NCBI RefSeq assembly: GCF_000420165.1
Contig: NZ_ATUK01000010.1
Coordinates: 124,001 to 188,000 of the forward strand
Reading direction: 5' to 3'
Source of the DNA: Thioalkalivibrio sp. AKL19
GTDB taxonomy: Bacteria; Pseudomonadota; Gammaproteobacteria; Ectothiorhodospirales; Ectothiorhodospiraceae
Length of the DNA stretch: 64,000 nt
In this document: positions 47,134 to 54,965 of the stretch, in pieces
Layout of the letters: each line of letters starts with the position of its first letter
Position numbering within the stretch: position 1 is the stretch's first letter
Position numbers and translations under genes: made by a program
Notes under the pieces: model-generated
Told to the model about the DNA's origin: nothing
The model's database searches: none
What the model saw: the letters and a program-made list of their open reading frames with translations, nothing else

Positions 47134-47522
47134 AAACCAACGAGTCTCCGGGAAACCCGGGGCGGTTCACGCCCTTCCCGGCAGATGATGGCGATTCGCC
47201 CGCGGCATGACTTCCCTCCCTGGAATGCCCATTTGATGGCCGAAATCACCGCTTCAAGCCCGACTCGCGCCCTTTATAGACCGGTTTCCTTCGGTTTTTC
47301 AGTACGTTACTGAGGCCCGACCCCGTTATCCCTCCGTAAACCCGGGGCGGTTCACGCGCTTCCCAGCAGATGATGGCGATTCGCCCGCGGCATGACTTCC
47401 CTCCCTGGAATGCCCATTTGATGGCCGAAATCACCGCTTCAAGCCCGACTCGCGCCCTTTATAGACCGGTTTCCTTCGGTTTTTCAGTACGTTACCGAGG
47501 TCCGACCCCGTTATCCCTCCGT
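47134..47522. mobile_element. Tandem 185-bp mini-elements carrying the RAYT gene start
   Basis: 47153-47337 and 47338-47522 are near-identical 185-bp direct repeats. On the - strand each reads from an ATAACGGGGTCGG end, through GGGAGGGAAGTC and ATGCCGCGGGCGAATCG (MPRANRHHLPG), then stops. They are therefore copies of the 5' end of the intact transposase gene at 51308-52045 (matching 52012-52166) that lack the rest. Confidence 0.88.
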
Positions 47523-47584
47523 ATCCCCATCTCTCTTCTCCCCGACTGGCCCCCCGCCTCGCAATCAATGCCTCGCACTGCGGA

Positions 47585-49582
47585 TCACGGTTTATGGCTC
47601 TCAAACCACTCGAGGATGAGTTCCAGGCGTTTGACCAGATTCACCGGAGTGCCGTCCCGGGACAGGTTGTGGCCTTCGCCATCGAATACCGCCAGCTCGC
47701 TCTCTACGTCGTTATTAAGCAGCGCGTAGAACCACTCCTGGCCCTGCCCGATCGGGGTCACCCGGTCATCGGTAGAGTGGATGATCAGCGTCGGCGTACT
47801 CACCTGGTCGGCGTACTTGAGCGGTGAGCGTCCCCAATAATAGTCGTAGTTCGTCCAGATCGTGCCGCCAAACTCGGCATTCATCCTTGTCGGCACGTAG
47901 TCCTGGGTGCCGGCCTCAGAGATCCAGTTGGAGACACTGCGCTGGGTGACCGCCGCGCGGAAGCGATCGGTCTGCGTGGTGATCCAGTTGGTCAGAAAGC
48001 CGCCATGGCTGCCACCGGTCAGAAACTGGCGCTCCTCGTCGATCCAGTCGTAGCGCTCCAACGCCGCGTCCAGGGCCTGCATGTTGTCGCGGTAGTCCAC
48101 CCCACCGTAGTCCTGGTACACCGAGGCCTGGAACTCGTAACCGTAGCCGGTCGAACCCCGATAGTTGGTGAACAGCATCGCGTAGCCCGCGCCCGCGATC
48201 ATCTGAAACTCGTGGAACCAGCGATGGCCCCACATATGCGCCGGACCGCCACGAATGTTCAACACCAGCGGCCAGTCATCGCCGGCGTCGAGCCCTTTGG
48301 GCCGTAGCAGGAACGCATCCACCGTGCGGCCATCCTCGACCTCGTAGCTGAAGCGTTCGAGCTCGGTCCGGTAACGTGATTCCAACAGAGTGTCGTTGAA
48401 GCCCGTCAGGCGTCGCGACTCGAACCCGTCACTGTCGGCGACGTGCACCTCCGGCATCCGGGTTTCGTCTTCGACCAGCAAGGCCAGGGACTCGCCGTCG
48501 GCGGCAAAGTCGATATCGCTGAGAGCGGCTTCATCACCGAGGACCACCTCGCTGTCACCATCGGGATGCAAGCGAATCAGTGGACGGCTGCCGCGGAAGT
48601 CCGCCAATACCAGGGGGCGATCGAACCCCTCGGGCCACCAGGCCTGCGTAACGGAGAAGTCCATGCCATCGTGCAGTACCTTGTGGTCGTCGTTGTCGAT
48701 CCCGATGCGGTGCAGTTCCACGGGACGATAACGGTCGGACTGATAGAGAAAGGCGACCTGGCGCCCGTCGGGCGAGAACAGTGGGTCGGTGACACGCCCA
48801 TCGGGCGCGGACAGCTGGCGTTCCTCACGGCTTTCGAGATCGAGCAGGTAGATGTCCTGATTGAAGCTGCCGTCGTACTCGCGGCCGCTGCGGTCGACAT
48901 TGAACGCCAGGAAGCGGCCATCGGGCGAAACCGTCGGGTTGTTGTGGTTCCACTCGGCGTCCCCTGCCAAACGCTCGAGTTCGCCGCTTGCCGAATCCAG
49001 CAACCACAAGGTGCGGCGGCTCTCATCCAGCCAACCCTGCGACTCACGACGGCTGAGCGGCCGCGAATAGACCTTCACATCCGCCTGCGGTGCGTCATCC
49101 CCCTGCTCCTCCTGCGCGGGATCCTCGACGGCCGGGTCGATGGTCAGGGTAACGATCAGGTGTTGACCATCAGGCAGCCAGGCAAAGTGAGAAAGATTGC
49201 CCTGTTCAATCTCGGTGATGGCGTGGGCTTCACCACCGTCAATGGGTATCAGATGAATCTGGGCGTCCTCGTCAACGGTCCTCAAGAAGGCCACTTGCCG
49301 CCCATCGGGAGAAAAACGGGGATGACGATCGGACTCACCCTGGGTGAACTGGCTTGCCGATTCCGAGCCATCAGCCGGCACCATCCAGATGCTCGATTCC
49401 CGATTGCGGCGTTCATCGTCCACGCGACTGCGCACGAAGACGACATGGCCAGCATCCGGCGAAAGCCTCGGCTCGGTCGCGAACACGAAGTCGTAATAGT
49501 CGGCGGGCACCATCGGCTCCGGCGGCTCCGCCCATACCGACGGCGTGTAGAAGATGACGATCAGCAACAGTGTTCGGGTCAT
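47585..49582 (-). CDS. S9-family prolyl oligopeptidase-type peptidase, exported
   Basis: 665 residues from ATG 49582. The signal peptide is TLLLIVIFYTPSVWA. An N-terminal beta-propeller (about 30-390) has repeated TolB-like blades (RHPRFSPDGRQVAFL, PTVSPDGRFLAFN, PLFSPDGRQVAFLY). The hydrolase domain has LNIRGGPAHMWGHRW, the nucleophile TGGSHGGFLTN, Asp in IIHSTDDRV and His in EGHNLS. It cleaves dipeptides or acyl-amino acids from peptides in the periplasm. RAYT-type repeats flank the gene on both sides. Confidence 0.92.
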   Translation of the reverse strand: MTRTLLLIVIFYTPSVWAEPPEPMVPADYYDFVFATEPRLSPDAGHVVFVRSRVDDERRNRESSIWMVPADGSESASQFTQGESDRHPRFSPDGRQVAFLRTVDEDAQIHLIPIDGGEAHAITEIEQGNLSHFAWLPDGQHLIVTLTIDPAVEDPAQEEQGDDAPQADVKVYSRPLSRRESQGWLDESRRTLWLLDSASGELERLAGDAEWNHNNPTVSPDGRFLAFNVDRSGREYDGSFNQDIYLLDLESREERQLSAPDGRVTDPLFSPDGRQVAFLYQSDRYRPVELHRIGIDNDDHKVLHDGMDFSVTQAWWPEGFDRPLVLADFRGSRPLIRLHPDGDSEVVLGDEAALSDIDFAADGESLALLVEDETRMPEVHVADSDGFESRRLTGFNDTLLESRYRTELERFSYEVEDGRTVDAFLLRPKGLDAGDDWPLVLNIRGGPAHMWGHRWFHEFQMIAGAGYAMLFTNYRGSTGYGYEFQASVYQDYGGVDYRDNMQALDAALERYDWIDEERQFLTGGSHGGFLTNWITTQTDRFRAAVTQRSVSNWISEAGTQDYVPTRMNAEFGGTIWTNYDYYWGRSPLKYADQVSTPTLIIHSTDDRVTPIGQGQEWFYALLNNDVESELAVFDGEGHNLSRDGTPVNLVKRLELILEWFESHKP

Positions 49583-49628
49583 GGAGTCCTCGAGGGAAAG
49601 GAAATGCCCCCGAGTTTGCCGCAACGAG

Positions 49629-49646
49629 CTCATGGGTGTCCTTTTC
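49629..49646. repeat. Copy of the ATGGGTGTCC motif upstream of the S9 peptidase
   Basis: CTCATGGGTGTCCTTTTCTC is one of five occurrences (39084, 43637, 45603, 49629, 53144) of a motif that marks RAYT-related junctions in this window. Confidence 0.7.
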
Positions 49647-49827
49647 TCGCCCGCCTGCGATGGACGTTCCGGGTAGCCGCCACGACGACGAACGCGCACT
49701 CACCGTGCCCCGGCCGCAGGGGTTCGATACCCCCCCCTCCCGGCAAGCGGCCCCGCAAGGGTCTGTACCCAACCATCGATCGAGAAGCCGCCCTGCAGAA
49801 GTAGCTGTTCCACTCCATCCGCGGAAA

Positions 49828-50111
49828 GACGCCGGGGTCAAACCTTGCCTTCCGCCGGAAACTTCCAGAGGCAAAAGGAGAGCTCTGAGCCCATAGCTCA
49901 CAAGGTGGCGTGACCCCAACCAACGAGTCTCCGGGAAACCCGGGGCGGTTCACGCGCTTCCCGGCAGATGATGGCGATTCGCCCGCGGCATGACTTCCCT
50001 CCCTGGAATGCCCATTTGATGGCCGAAATCACCGCTTCAAGCCCGACTCGCGCCCTTTCTAGACCGGTTTCTTTCGGTTTTTCCGTACGTTACCGAGGTC
50101 CGACCCCCTTA
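49828..50111. mobile_element. RAYT mini-element: 89-bp unit plus gene-start block
   Basis: 49828-49916 is the third palindromic unit (seven bases shorter). 49936-50111 matches the 185-bp block, including the transposase start and the GGTCCGACCCC end. Its end supplies the last codons and the stop of the adjacent diguanylate cyclase gene. Confidence 0.85.
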
Positions 50112-50964
50112 CTTCTCCCCTTTTCCGCTTCACCCGGTACATTTCGCCATCCGCACGGCTCAGCAAGGTATCGGCGTCCTCTCCGTCTGCGGGATAGCAG
50201 GCCACGCCAATGCTACAAGACGGTATGATCCCGCCGAACTCGGCGCCCAGGGGCTCGTCCATGGCCGATTGAATGCCCTCGACCTTTCTGGAAACGGCAC
50301 CCTCCACCTGGATATCCGTCAGCAGGACAATAAACTCATCCCCGCCCATCCGCGCCACCGTGTCCGTCTCCCGCACGCAGCCCTCCAGCCGCCGGGCGAT
50401 CGTACAAAGCACACGGTCCCCCACCGCGTGTCCATGGACATCATTGATCACCTTGAAGTCGTTGATATCCAGAAACAGCAAGGCCAGGTGGTTCTGGTAG
50501 CGATGGGCCGAATGTAGCGCCAGATCCAGGCGGTCATAGAACAGCGATCGGTTGGTCAGTCCTGTCAGCGGATCATGATGGGCGAGGAAGCGCAGTTCCT
50601 CCTCGGCCTGCCGCAGGGTCGTCACGTCCCGCGCAACCCCAATCCGCACACCCTCCTCCTCGACCCAGTGTGCCGACCAAAGGATGTACACGACACCGCC
50701 ATCTTTGCGGATATAGCGGTTACGGAAATCGACGTGAGGCTTGCCCTCCATGACCCGAACAATGGAGGCCAGTGAGGCCGCCAGGTCTTCAGGATGCATA
50801 TAGTCGGTGATCGTGGTTCCGATCAGCTCCTCCGCGCGATAACCAAGCAGATCCTCACAGGCATCGCTCACGAAGACGATCTGATTGTCCCGATCGACCA
50901 CAAAGACCGTGTCGAGGATCAGATGGATCAGCCTGGCCGAGAGCGCTTGAAGGTCAACGGGCAT
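50059..50964 (-). CDS. PAS-GGDEF diguanylate cyclase with an element-derived C-terminus
   Basis: 301 residues from ATG 50964; the ribosome-binding site is weak. A PAS domain (about 10-115, VFVVDRDNQIVFVSDACEDLLGY) is followed by GGDEF (about 125-285) with LDINDFKVIND, GHAVGD, GGDEF intact and RETD as I-site. The final 16-17 residues (GSDLGNVRKNRKKPV) and the TAG stop are read from the mini-element at 49828-50111. This tail follows a normal domain end, so enzyme activity is probably kept. Confidence 0.88.
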   Translation of the reverse strand: MPVDLQALSARLIHLILDTVFVVDRDNQIVFVSDACEDLLGYRAEELIGTTITDYMHPEDLAASLASIVRVMEGKPHVDFRNRYIRKDGGVVYILWSAHWVEEEGVRIGVARDVTTLRQAEEELRFLAHHDPLTGLTNRSLFYDRLDLALHSAHRYQNHLALLFLDINDFKVINDVHGHAVGDRVLCTIARRLEGCVRETDTVARMGGDEFIVLLTDIQVEGAVSRKVEGIQSAMDEPLGAEFGGIIPSCSIGVACYPADGEDADTLLSRADGEMYRVKRKRGEVRGSDLGNVRKNRKKPV

Positions 50965-51110
50965 TGGTCAAGGATCTCTGGTCCACGGACTCACACTCTA
51001 GGGAAACACTGATTAATGTACGCACCCGCGCTCGAGTCGCTTTTGCGTGCGAACAAGGCGCGGTGACTGCCGTGCCGTCATTCTGCACAAGAGAGCCGCA
51101 ACCGTTCGGC

Positions 51111-51313
51111 GACGGGGTCGGACCACGACAACCTACTGACTTCATATATTTATATCGCGCAACCCCCCTTTCTAGAGGCTTATCCGCCCCATTTCGCCGT
51201 CAAAATAGCCAGTTGGCGACGGGGTCGGACCAAGACAACCTACTGACTTAATGGATTTATATCGCGCCAAACCGCCTTTCTAGAGGCTTATCCGCCCCAT
51301 TTCGCCGTCAAAA
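51111..51313. repeat. 107-bp tandem repeat of the RAYT 3' flank
   Basis: 51111-51217 and 51218-51313 start GACGGGGTCGGACCA and share CTTTCTAGAGGCTTATCC. The second copy is the element end next to the transposase stop; the first is an extra copy, as left by a one-ended or repeated insertion. Confidence 0.85.
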
Positions 51314-52166
51314 CCGTTGATCAACCCCATAACTCGCCCCATCGTCGCGCACCCATGCGGTATCCCCCGTCTGTTCAACGTGGCGCCCCGGCGACCGCAC
51401 CCCCAGCGCCCGGCGCACTTCGTCCACATACGACCGGTCCCCTACCGCGACGGCCGTCGTCCACCACCCATCCCGACTGGCGCGATCCGAGGCCAGCGCC
51501 TCCTCCACCCACAAACGATGACACTCCCGCAGCTCGGCTCCGGCGCCGATCTCCAGCGCATCCAGCAGGGCCTGCTCATCAATGACTCGGTAACGGTCCG
51601 GTGGTGCCTGGATCTCGCGATATCCGCTGGCTTCCCACTCCGATGGATGCTTCACCACCCCCGCCCGGACCATATTCAGGTCGATGTACACCAGGCAGCG
51701 CGCGAGGTGGGCCCCGGTCTGCACGGCAGTGGCATGGTAGCGGTCTTCCCAGAAAGCGCCCTTGCGCGCCTTGCGCCGGTTGTACGACTGGCCAACCCGG
51801 CCCGCGATCAACTGCATGGAACGCGCAATCTCGCCTCCGCCCCCATCGCGCACCAGCAGGTGTACATGGTTGGAGGTCACTATGTAGTTGAGCACACAGA
51901 GTCCGTAACGCTGGCGCGCCTGGTACAGCCAGTAGCGCCAGAGCCTCCGGTCGCGGGCAAACTTCAGCAGAAACTCCTGCTTATGACACCGGTGGGTGAT
52001 ATGCCAGACATAGCCCGGCAGATGATGGCGATTCGCCCGTGGCATGGCTTCCCTCCCTGGAACGCCCATTTGATGGCCGAAATGTCCGCTTTAAGCTCGA
52101 ATCGCGGCCTTTCTAGACCGGTTTACCGCTGTTTTTCCGTAGGTTACCGAGGTCCGACCCCGTTAT
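51218..52166 (-). mobile_element. Complete RAYT element
   Basis: About 950 bp holding one Y1 transposase gene. The ends carry GGGGTCGGACC (51221-51231) and GGTCCGACCCC (52151-52161) in inverted orientation. Partial copies of its gene-start end occur at 47134-47522, 49936-50111 and 53188-53299. Confidence 0.8.
51308..52045 (-). CDS. REP-associated tyrosine transposase (RAYT, Y1/IS200-like)
   Basis: 245 residues from ATG 52045 (GGGAGGGAAG upstream). RAYT signatures: PRANRHHLPGYVWHITHRCHKQEFLL, the metal-binding NHVHLLV, KGAFWEDRYHATAVQTGAHLARCLVYIDLNMVRAGVV split as usual, and a Tyr-containing YNRRKARKG helix for DNA cleavage. Such single-strand transposases copy or trim REP-like palindromes. 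It is the only intact one here and the likely source of the many mini-elements. Confidence 0.93.
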   Translation of the reverse strand: MPRANRHHLPGYVWHITHRCHKQEFLLKFARDRRLWRYWLYQARQRYGLCVLNYIVTSNHVHLLVRDGGGGEIARSMQLIAGRVGQSYNRRKARKGAFWEDRYHATAVQTGAHLARCLVYIDLNMVRAGVVKHPSEWEASGYREIQAPPDRYRVIDEQALLDALEIGAGAELRECHRLWVEEALASDRASRDGWWTTAVAVGDRSYVDEVRRALGVRSPGRHVEQTGDTAWVRDDGASYGVDQRF

Positions 52167-52233
52167 GCCACGCCGAAATCCATGAGGCGCGCGAGGTACG
52201 AGCGTCGCCTCGATGAAATTGTTGGGGTTTTCT

Positions 52234-52824
52234 CTAGTATGGGGCATGAGCGTGAACCTCCCCGGCCAATGCATTGAGCTCGTCAACAAGCCATTTAAAT
52301 CGACCCTGTTTCTTCAGCCATGCCCCACAAGGCCCCATCCTTTCGTATCCCGTCGCCTTCTTGGCAGCCGATTTCGCTTGGTAACTATCGTGTGCAGCAT
52401 AGTTCCGAAGTGCTGACAGATATTCTATTGGATCCTTGTAGCGTCGCTTCTTGAGTATCGCGACAAGATAATGCGTTGATGGCACATATCTCTTGACGAT
52501 CTTTATCAGGCCGTCACGTCCTTTAAAATCGAAATACCCGTTTGCCACGATCAGGTATTCACAGAGCTCATCCGTGAGGTGAGCTGGGAACTCGATTCCC
52601 GTGGTTTCAGAGATAGTCGACGTGTCGTTGTTGATGGCGCCAGTAAGTGCCTCGAGCATCAGATTCTCGAATTCACGGTAAAGACGGATCACCACGTACT
52701 CATAACACCAGGTAACGTGCGCATCCGACAAATGTTTCTCAGCCTCCGCGACGTAGTCGAGTAGATCGCCCGCATTACTCTGGAACGAGGTTGCGGAATT
52801 CTGGATACTTTTTTTCCGTGGCAT
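52234..52824 (-). CDS. HEPN-like protein, candidate ribonuclease
   Basis: 196 residues from ATG 52824 (GCCGAAGGCC upstream, weak). All-helical, hydrophilic, with AT-richer codons than the host average. LSALRNYAAHDS (R140 to H145) fits the R-x4-H signature of HEPN nucleases, with a polar residue after the Arg. Upstream helices (EYVVIRLYREFENLMLEALTGAIN) would form the rest of the bundle. HEPN proteins are common RNA-cleaving toxins in defence systems. The family call rests on the motif and helical content alone. Confidence 0.6.
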   Translation of the reverse strand: MPRKKSIQNSATSFQSNAGDLLDYVAEAEKHLSDAHVTWCYEYVVIRLYREFENLMLEALTGAINNDTSTISETTGIEFPAHLTDELCEYLIVANGYFDFKGRDGLIKIVKRYVPSTHYLVAILKKRRYKDPIEYLSALRNYAAHDSYQAKSAAKKATGYERMGPCGAWLKKQGRFKWLVDELNALAGEVHAHAPY

Positions 52825-52913
52825 GGCCTTCGGCTCCTACGCCCAACACTTGGCTTTGCGGCGCATCGGAGCGCCAGCGTAGGTGCGTCCGACAACAGCC
52901 ACTTGTTAAATTT

Positions 52914-53138
52914 TCAGTGGCCTTGATTCGACTTCGACAGGAACAGCCCTATTACGATTTCAAACATAAACATACCTACTAGAGTCTGACCAGTTGCGAG
53001 CATTTTCGTCAGGTCTGAAACTGGGAATATATCTCCATACCCAAGGGTTGTCATAGTAACGAAGCTATGGTAAATGCTGTCTATCCGGCATAAGCCCTCT
53101 ACCGAACATATTCCCCATGACCAAGAGATATAAGCCAT
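52914..53138 (-). pseudogene. C-terminal half of a potassium channel, truncated
   Basis: 74 codons. The selectivity filter TMTTLGYGDIFP is followed by the last membrane helix (TGQTLVGMFMFEIVIGLFLSK), the layout of two-helix K+ channels. The first helix is missing: just upstream the sequence becomes repeat DNA (53144-53299), and beyond it lies an unrelated gene. Confidence 0.75.
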
Positions 53139-53143
53139 GGAGA

Positions 53144-53299
53144 GATCGTGGGTGTCCTCCTCTTCTGCTTCTTCCTCTTCTTTTCAACCCTGGTATGCCC
53201 ATTTGATGGCCGAAATGACCGCTTTAAGCTCGAATTCCGCCCTTTCTAGACCGGTTACCCTCGGTTTTTATGTAGGTTACCGAGGCCCGACCCCGTTAT
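53144..53299. mobile_element. RAYT mini-element between the channel fragment and the HEPN gene
   Basis: Starts with GATCGTGGGTGTCCTCC, continues as a CTTC-rich stretch, then matches the transposase 5' region (CCCATTTGATGGCCGAAATG) up to GGCCCGACCCCGTTAT. The terminal TTA forms the stop codon (TAA) of the HEPN gene on the - strand. Confidence 0.82.
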
Positions 53300-53922
53300 T
53301 CTCCATTATGAGGTTCCCAACATTCCGCTTCAATCGCTACAACACAATCTAAGAGAAATCCCGATGCCTCCTCCGCTTCCTCCGCTCCAATCGGCCGAAC
53401 AGACCCCCAAACAGGATCGATATCTGCTTCGTGTACGATCATATTTCTCCTATCCACGATAGCATTTAATCGTTGCCGAAACACCTCTGATGAATACGTC
53501 ATAGAAGCCGCCACACGAGCTAAACGTTTCGGTCGATCGTCGACAAACCTTAGCGCCTTGGCAATATCATCCGCCCGTTGGAATGTGTCCCGAGAAAACT
53601 GTGCACGCACTTCACCCTCAACCCAAGATGTAGACCCACCTGACGCGAGTTGCTCAGCCGAAGAAAGACAGATCCGCGCTTCGCCATAATGTTTATTTTT
53701 TTCTCTCGACCCGAGGAAAGATTTATAAATCGCCTCAACACATAGGTTGTGCACGTAGGAGTCCCATGCTGAAACGGCCAAAACAATCTCTGCCCGAAAT
53801 GCCTCGGACATATCGACAGAACCCAAGGCTTTCCCCTCTAATGCCCTTCCCACATGGGAAAGTCCATGAACACGATCGTACGAAGCTAGAAATCGCTGAT
53901 AAGCTTCAGACCTCATATTCAA
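53296..53922 (-). CDS. HEPN-like protein encoded with a ParA-type ATPase
   Basis: 208 residues from TTG 53922, overlapping the ATPase stop by four bases (TTGA); ATG 53916 is the alternative. Helical throughout. VLAVSAWDSYVHNLCVEAIYKSF resembles the first helix of RiboL-PSP-type HEPN proteins, and IVDRRNMIVHEADID (R159, H164) is a near-ideal RNxxxH nuclease motif. Its stop codon lies in the adjacent mini-element, so a few C-terminal residues may have been lost. Low-GC codons match the ATPase, so the pair moved together. Confidence 0.72.
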   Translation of the reverse strand: MNMRSEAYQRFLASYDRVHGLSHVGRALEGKALGSVDMSEAFRAEIVLAVSAWDSYVHNLCVEAIYKSFLGSREKNKHYGEARICLSSAEQLASGGSTSWVEGEVRAQFSRDTFQRADDIAKALRFVDDRPKRLARVAASMTYSSEVFRQRLNAIVDRRNMIVHEADIDPVWGSVRPIGAEEAEEASGFLLDCVVAIEAECWEPHNGE

Positions 53923-54965
53923 CCCAGAAGCTCCACCACCTGCCTCACAGCTTTCTCATATATATCGTGGAAATCGCCCCTTTTCTCACGATTCTGGGAA
54001 AGAACCGATCCGACGGAACCTATCTGTTCATCAGACAGCGCAAAAACAGGTGTAGACCCGATATGCGATGTGGTCACGAGACTATTAAAATCCGGCACCA
54101 ACCCGAGGCAAAATCCACTAGATCGCTCCCCAAGCACTTCGCTATACCGTTCTAGCGAGAATGCTAACTCGGATTGGGACAAAGCGGGCATCAGAGTTTC
54201 ATCGATAACACGGAACAAGCGGTTAATTTGGTCTTGGAACCCTTTTGTTGGATCACCTCCACGAAGCCGGAAGTTCTGAACAACGGTCCCTAAGAATTTA
54301 GGCTTTCTGGCCGACAAGGTATAACTCGCATCCTGTAAGGCTGGATGACCAACAGCGCGGTCAAGCCATGAGCTCCACATAGGGAGGACCCTAGCGAGGG
54401 AATGAATAGCCATTTGGCTGAAATAGTCTGGCGAGTTCGGAATAATGAAGCCGTCGGAAGAAAGAAATAGGTTTTGATTGATCGAGCTAAGGCTGGGATT
54501 CAAGTCAATAAGAACATAGTCAGCGCCGACGGCATCTGCTGTTATATCTAGCAGGTGAGCGGCTGCGCCTGGGACATTCTTGAGCGCGTGCACAGAACCG
54601 CTTAGCTCATGTGCCAAGGTCAAGGTTATTTCATATTCCGATAGCGCCAGATGGCCTGGCAAAAGATATAGGCCATCACGGCTTTCGATTTCGAGATTTG
54701 GTGCCGCAGTTAAGGGTGAAAGAGCTCCATCAAAAACCGGTGATAACGCAGACTTTAAATTGCAGTCCGGCCGGTCTAGATAGTGCTGCTCAAACCGGTC
54801 GAAGCTCCCCGAGGACAGAATTAACCCCGTAAGATTGCATTGGGGGTCTGCATCCACCAACAGGACCTTATACCCCTGCTCAGCAAGCATCCATCCGAAG
54901 TGGAACACATTGGTAGTCTTGCTTACGCCACCCTTGTGGTTGAAAAAGGCTATTTTCTTCGCCAC
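53919..54965 (-). CDS. ParA-family ATPase
   Basis: 348 residues from GTG 54965 (AGGAG seven bases before). The deviant Walker A KGGVSKTT (11-18), the A' motif LLVDADPQ (D38/D40) and the Walker B-like VLIDLNPSLSSIN identify a ParA/MinD-type ATPase. It has an extended insert between the A' and B motifs (PDCNLKSALSPVFDGALSPLTAAPN) and a C-terminal region (FQDQINRLFRVIDETLMPAL) seen in the stand-alone AAA_31 group rather than in plasmid ParA. No parB follows; the partner is the HEPN-like gene, translationally coupled to it. Confidence 0.85.
   Translation of the reverse strand: MAKKIAFFNHKGGVSKTTNVFHFGWMLAEQGYKVLLVDADPQCNLTGLILSSGSFDRFEQHYLDRPDCNLKSALSPVFDGALSPLTAAPNLEIESRDGLYLLPGHLALSEYEITLTLAHELSGSVHALKNVPGAAAHLLDITADAVGADYVLIDLNPSLSSINQNLFLSSDGFIIPNSPDYFSQMAIHSLARVLPMWSSWLDRAVGHPALQDASYTLSARKPKFLGTVVQNFRLRGGDPTKGFQDQINRLFRVIDETLMPALSQSELAFSLERYSEVLGERSSGFCLGLVPDFNSLVTTSHIGSTPVFALSDEQIGSVGSVLSQNREKRGDFHDIYEKAVRQVVELLG

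Follow-up and report, generated by a model that had tools for sequence, protein, structure and literature searches.

A pairing of a HEPN-domain protein with a ParA/Soj ATPase was described by Anantharaman et al. in 2013 (PMC3710099) as one of the less common arrangements, in which the HEPN protein belongs to the MAE_18760 family, and was predicted to be a toxin–antitoxin system. The ATPase was proposed to act as the antitoxin, either by way of a nucleotide-dependent conformational change or by phosphorylation, whereas HEPN proteins of the RiboL-PSP family are listed in the same work with L-PSP fusions and with a ParB operon, not with this ParA pairing (PMC3710099). The sequence-only reading of the locus discussed here had treated a ParA protein serving as the switch of a HEPN nuclease as an unusual idea; the idea is not a new one, having been put forward for the MAE_18760 HEPN family in 2013. 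A ParA-like gene also occurs in the immunity region of Salmonella Gifsy-1, where it is required, together with two hypothetical genes (STM14_3218-3220), for an RNA-end signal on prophage induction; this signal activates RtcR, and the three genes lower phage titres 2–4 fold (PMC9879122). A search of the open-licence literature found no experimental work on a ParA–HEPN pair.

Organization of the Locus

The pair considered here lies in a stretch of 64,000 nucleotides from Thioalkalivibrio sp. AKL19, which was analyzed as a whole and is referred to below as the window (Table 1). Both reading frames are intact and free of internal stops, and the GTG start codon of the ATPase gene is preceded by an AGGAG ribosome-binding-like site. 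Scans for sigma-70 promoters and for terminators returned no more hits than shuffled sequences did, with nothing convincing upstream of the ParA gene. No ParB-like gene adjoins the pair in the window.

Table 1. Features of the ParA–HEPN locus, in window coordinates
Feature	Position	Strand	Remarks
ParA/Soj-like deviant-Walker ATPase ORF	53919..54965	-	348 aa, GTG start; proposed antitoxin/regulator
Deviant Walker A motif KGGVSKTT (ParA residues 11-18)	54912..54935	-	
HEPN (RiboL-PSP-type) ORF	53296..53922	-	208 aa from TTG; proposed RNase toxin; start more likely the ATG at 53916
R-x4-H motif RNMIVH (R159-H164 of HEPN)	53431..53448	-	
112-nt direct repeat copy	53188..53299	+	has its edge where the HEPN gene ends

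The two genes were originally read as translationally coupled through a four-base overlap. The close coupling stands, but the overlap itself depends on the TTG start and is unlikely: a methionine is found at the position of residue 3 of the window HEPN protein in 61 of 64 aligned nonredundant relatives, and this conservation points to the ATG at 53916, located two bases past the ParA stop codon, as the likely start. Counted from this ATG, the R-x4-H residues become R157 and H162. In the relatives the distance between the two genes lies mostly between −38 and +13 nt, with −17 and −8 being the commonest values.

The pair had also been called AT-richer than the rest of the window and surrounded by mobile-element remnants, and both statements were borne out. 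The GC content across 53–55 kb is 0.487–0.493, as compared with approximately 0.60–0.70 for most of the window. A Y1/IS200-like transposase gene is located at 51308-52069, and a 112-nt element is present between 47 and 53 kb (47218-53299) in five direct copies of one orientation that are 86–88% identical; the genome has no further full copies. Several of these copies, which lie beside the Y1 transposase, are at or near gene 3′ ends, and the last one ends at the 3′ terminus of the HEPN gene, where it likely marks the boundary of a cassette or of an insertion.

Two further reading frames on the same strand are found just downstream. A 196-aa ORF (52234-52824) contains RNYAAH, another R-x4-H pattern, and possibly represents a second HEPN-type gene; it has no meaningful match in Pfam, NCBIfam, or PADLOC, and its relatives (39%) are carried by Streptomyces plasmids, one of them near a phage capsid gene. 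A 74-aa ORF (52914-53138) that lies between the two HEPN-like genes encodes an Ion_trans_2 potassium-channel pore and is possibly a truncated channel gene.

The Two Proteins

The small protein is a HEPN protein, as a profile match, a run of structural matches, and the motif all agree. It matches the Pfam family HEPN_RiboL-PSP (PF18735) with an E-value of 1.1e-7 and 32.4 bits, above the curated gathering cutoff of 28.4, and the same family is matched by all 39 of its aligned relatives. R159 and H164 are present in 64 of 64 nonredundant relatives, as are D54, H58, and D167. The AlphaFold (AF2) model has a pLDDT of 93.1, and the top 13 rows of its VIA-align comparison are all HEPN proteins, mostly the HepT/HEPN toxins of HEPN-MNT systems, with Z of 7.4–8.6 over 119–137 residues and rmsd of 3.6–5.3, the Z values being modest for a helical bundle. 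Lower in the list come AbiV, Csm6, and, at Z 5.5–5.7, HepS, a HEPN protein from a prophage. Foldseek alone gave no match with E below 0.001 for this model, and a search of PDB sequences returned nothing meaningful. With the MAE_18760 model (PF18737) the window protein has no match at E ≤ 1, and 11 of the 39 relatives touch that model weakly (best 6e-4); the PADLOC 2.0 system models likewise gave no match at E ≤ 1. The original description of a helical protein with a HEPN R-x4-H motif is thus upheld, and the profile search that had been suggested as a check places the protein within the HEPN clan. An RNase activity is predicted from fold and motif.

The ATPase had been described as a ParA-family protein with KGGVSKTT and without a parB partner, with which its Pfam match to AAA_31 (6.6e-26) and its gene neighborhood are in agreement. 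Its AF2 model has a pLDDT of 94.4, with 3pg5 and Soj/ParA as the best PDB matches. Among 37 relatives K11, G12, G13, V14, K16, T17, and T18 are invariant and S15 is conserved in at least 90%; invariance of the signature lysine K11, of K16, and of the aspartates D38, D40, and D154 means that the deviant Walker A motif and the Walker A′/B aspartates of ParA/MinD (SIMIBI) ATPases are all in place. The serine that replaces the usual glycine in the P-loop is found in at least 90% of the HEPN-paired ParA family. Other ParA/MinD-type genes of the same genome score far lower in comparison (next best 48 bits versus 471). The sole PADLOC 2.0 match, to the P-loop of the candidate PDC-M28B, does not amount to membership of a PADLOC system.

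Pairing and Co-Inheritance

The ParA–HEPN pair is a real unit with strict pairing and shared evolution. Scanning genomes with the ParA alignment turned up 567 relatives, and the 80 best came from organisms labelled as Bacteroidota, Dehalococcoidia, Cyanobacteria, Streptomyces and other actinobacteria, Paenibacillus, Pirellulaceae, Proteobacteria, Poribacteria, and others. Among these best 80, an intact HEPN gene lies next door in 61 and a broken one in 11, an intact HEPN gene stands beside a ParA gene with a stop in one, and no HEPN gene is found in seven, two of which are at contig ends. Starting from the HEPN protein, ParA is directly upstream in 48 of 64 loci (counting the window itself and a few duplicates) and is always intact, and the 16 loci without ParA contain, bar one, weaker-scoring HEPN proteins. 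In this HEPN-first set, an intact ParA is upstream of every one of the 42 HEPN proteins whose full-length match reaches 125 bits or more. The question of whether the two genes recur side by side in unrelated genomes is therefore answered in the affirmative, across many phyla and phages.

Consistent with that, the ParA and HEPN distance matrices are correlated (Mantel r 0.823, 72 pairs), a value reached by none of 2000 permutations (best 0.25), although such a correlation can partly reflect shared species history. In the ParA tree the HEPN-paired proteins occupy one part, with the lone ParA proteins mostly outside of it. Decay of the pair is asymmetric: the HEPN gene is broken or short beside an intact ParA gene in 8 + 5 loci and the reverse is seen in one (L070), a count partly biased in that the ParA-first list is ranked by ParA match and that some breaks may be sequencing errors. 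Loss of HEPN with retention of ParA would be expected if ParA restrains HEPN.

Carriers and Mobility

The cassette is mobile between very different bacteria and phages. Within the window's own family one genome out of 47 has it. HEPN matches, a few of them weak and unpaired, occur in 6 of 398 genomes of the window's phylum and in 27 of the 292 that represent the phylum of Fortiea (L042). The pair is carried by Burkholderia glumae plasmids, most of them conjugative, by the Pseudomonas filamentous phages Pf1 and WX-TY, and by about twenty viral contigs with differing insertion points, namely beside repressors, after integrases, and between tail genes. In Pf1 (L010, 8717-10268) the HEPN gene is without annotation and appears to be truncated through a frameshift at a run of A residues, and the start of ParA is annotated too far downstream. 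Of the two families, PHROGs labels one “unknown function” (PHROG 13503) and names the other “ParA-like partition protein” (PHROG 164); for both of them a likely role is now offered. The flanks of 10 pair loci were compared with control stretches of the same genomes, and defence-like matches were found near the pairs (DpdF, methylases, and PsyrT) as well as in the controls (PD-T4-6/kinase models).

Each of the two proteins is also found without the other. ParA relatives without HEPN are common in prophages, which suggests that ParA has a role of its own. In a number of these (L118, L125, L132, L140, L142, L151, L156, L162) the lone ParA gene lies directly downstream of a CI-like repressor gene in the same orientation, and it is also found behind the repressor in the P22-like ST160; this rexAB-like placement suggests expression in lysogens. 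HEPN proteins of the same Pfam family, albeit lower-scoring, are encoded without a ParA neighbor next to phage integrases or between hsdM and hsdS, from which it follows that these proteins can exist without a ParA antitoxin. In one viral contig a type I restriction operon has such a gene between its hsdM-like and hsdS-like members (L203, 1773-5934). Two distant ParA relatives (L163, 5001-6760; L165, 496-2300) overlap by 4 nt a different gene of approximately 230 aa, whose product has an N-terminal DILGF motif and no Pfam match; it is a possible alternative partner of the same ParA.

Proposed Mechanism and Alternative Models

In the model considered here to be fairly probable, the pair is a mobile module of toxin–antitoxin type, in which the HEPN protein is the RNase toxin and the ParA-like ATPase its nucleotide-dependent restraint, as would fit the strict pairing, the partner-first order, the tight spacing, and the mobility. 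The HEPN protein, made from one operon right after ParA, would be a metal-independent RNase, probably dimeric, with the R-x4-H residues as its active site, and would be bound by the ATPase and held inactive depending on the ATP/ADP state or on dimerization of the latter. ParA would be disturbed by an infecting phage, by induction of a prophage, or when the carrier element is lost, and the RNase thereby released would cut RNA, such that growth or phage production stops. As a prediction from comparative genomics the toxin-pair reading is well supported; toxicity, direct neutralisation, and the trigger are those parts of it that we infer. The module probably serves its carrier element and, as may be inferred from the carriers being temperate phages and mobile elements, would bring phage defence or control of superinfection as its probable benefit; by analogy with known HEPN defence proteins and in view of the phage cargo sites and the mobility, a defence role is plausible.

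A different division of labor, which we regard as rather unlikely, is that of a sensor–effector defence pair, in which the HEPN protein is inert by itself and is activated by ParA upon sensing of a phage or DNA cue. This would agree with the lone ParA directly after CI-like repressors in many prophages, where it seems to be active by itself, with the existence of HEPN proteins without ParA, and with single-protein HEPN defences such as Tha, which are quiet until triggered (PMC11087260). The requirement for the ParA-like gene in Gifsy-1 (PMC9879122) would, if that ParA is a relative, also favor an activator or sensor over an antitoxin. However, HEPN decay beside an intact ParA is far commoner than the reverse, which fits restraint better than activation, and the ParA-before-toxin order and tight coupling mirror those of toxin–antitoxin operons. 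A still wider proposal, advanced here tentatively and with some doubt, is that the KGGVSKTT ParA subfamily is a general immunity switch of prophages and mobile elements, which acts alone behind CI-like repressors, with a HEPN RNase in many phyla, and occasionally with another effector such as the DILGF protein, and whose ATP state or DNA-bound assembly would be the sensor of infection. If true, such a ParA sensor would constitute a new way of triggering a HEPN RNase.

That the pair works purely as an addiction or stability module for plasmids and phages and lacks an anti-phage role is improbable. Its presence on conjugative Burkholderia plasmids and in phages would be in line with this, as would the flanks of the chromosomal copies, which show no clear enrichment in defence genes over the same-genome controls, but many of the copies are chromosomal, and in temperate phages the pair is placed as cargo in much the way that established prophage defences are, among them the Pf KKP module (PMC11341870). 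A partition (ParABS-like) or cell-positioning module with the small protein in the place of ParB, as the resemblance of the ParA fold to Soj/ParA and the name given to PHROG 164 would have it, is highly improbable, since the partner of ParA is no DNA-binding ParB but a helical HEPN domain whose nuclease motif is invariant, and since the pair is found on chromosomes and in integrated phages.

Comparison with Known Systems

With ParABS the pair shares the ParA/Soj ATPase fold and the deviant Walker A motif, from which it differs in lacking ParB, in the serine for glycine in the P-loop (KGGVSKTT), and in having a HEPN partner, as do 61 of the 80 best relatives. The accessory cargo modules KKP and PfiAT of Pf phages are likewise of toxin–antitoxin type, and Pf1 carries ParA–HEPN, but their proteins are unrelated to this pair. 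Tha of Staphylococcus prophages and HepS of Gifsy-1 are also prophage-borne HEPN proteins; Tha, which has been shown to be a defence protein and has the motif RNSIMH, differs in being a single protein with its own N-terminal region and without a ParA partner. The type VII HEPN-MNT (HepT-MntA) system has the same HEPN toxin fold (the best structural matches), the R-x4-H motif, a two-gene operon, and an NTP-using partner. In that system the partner is an MNT nucleotidyltransferase, whereas the window has an AAA_31/ParA protein with no evidence for AMPylation.

The closest likeness is to the MAE_18760 ParA/Soj–HEPN dyad, in which a ParA/Soj-type SIMIBI ATPase is also encoded beside a HEPN gene and the same division of labor has been proposed, the difference being that the window HEPN belongs by Pfam to the RiboL-PSP family, as do 39 of 39 relatives. 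By this classification the RiboL-PSP-type ParA–HEPN pair is a broad and very widespread new variant of the pair predicted in 2013, with a HEPN protein of a different family. Control of an RNase toxin by a cytoskeletal-type ATPase would be a regulatory principle for which no earlier demonstration was found, and as the pair spans many phyla and phages, including the textbook phage Pf1, the 2013 prediction becomes directly testable in well-studied laboratory strains.
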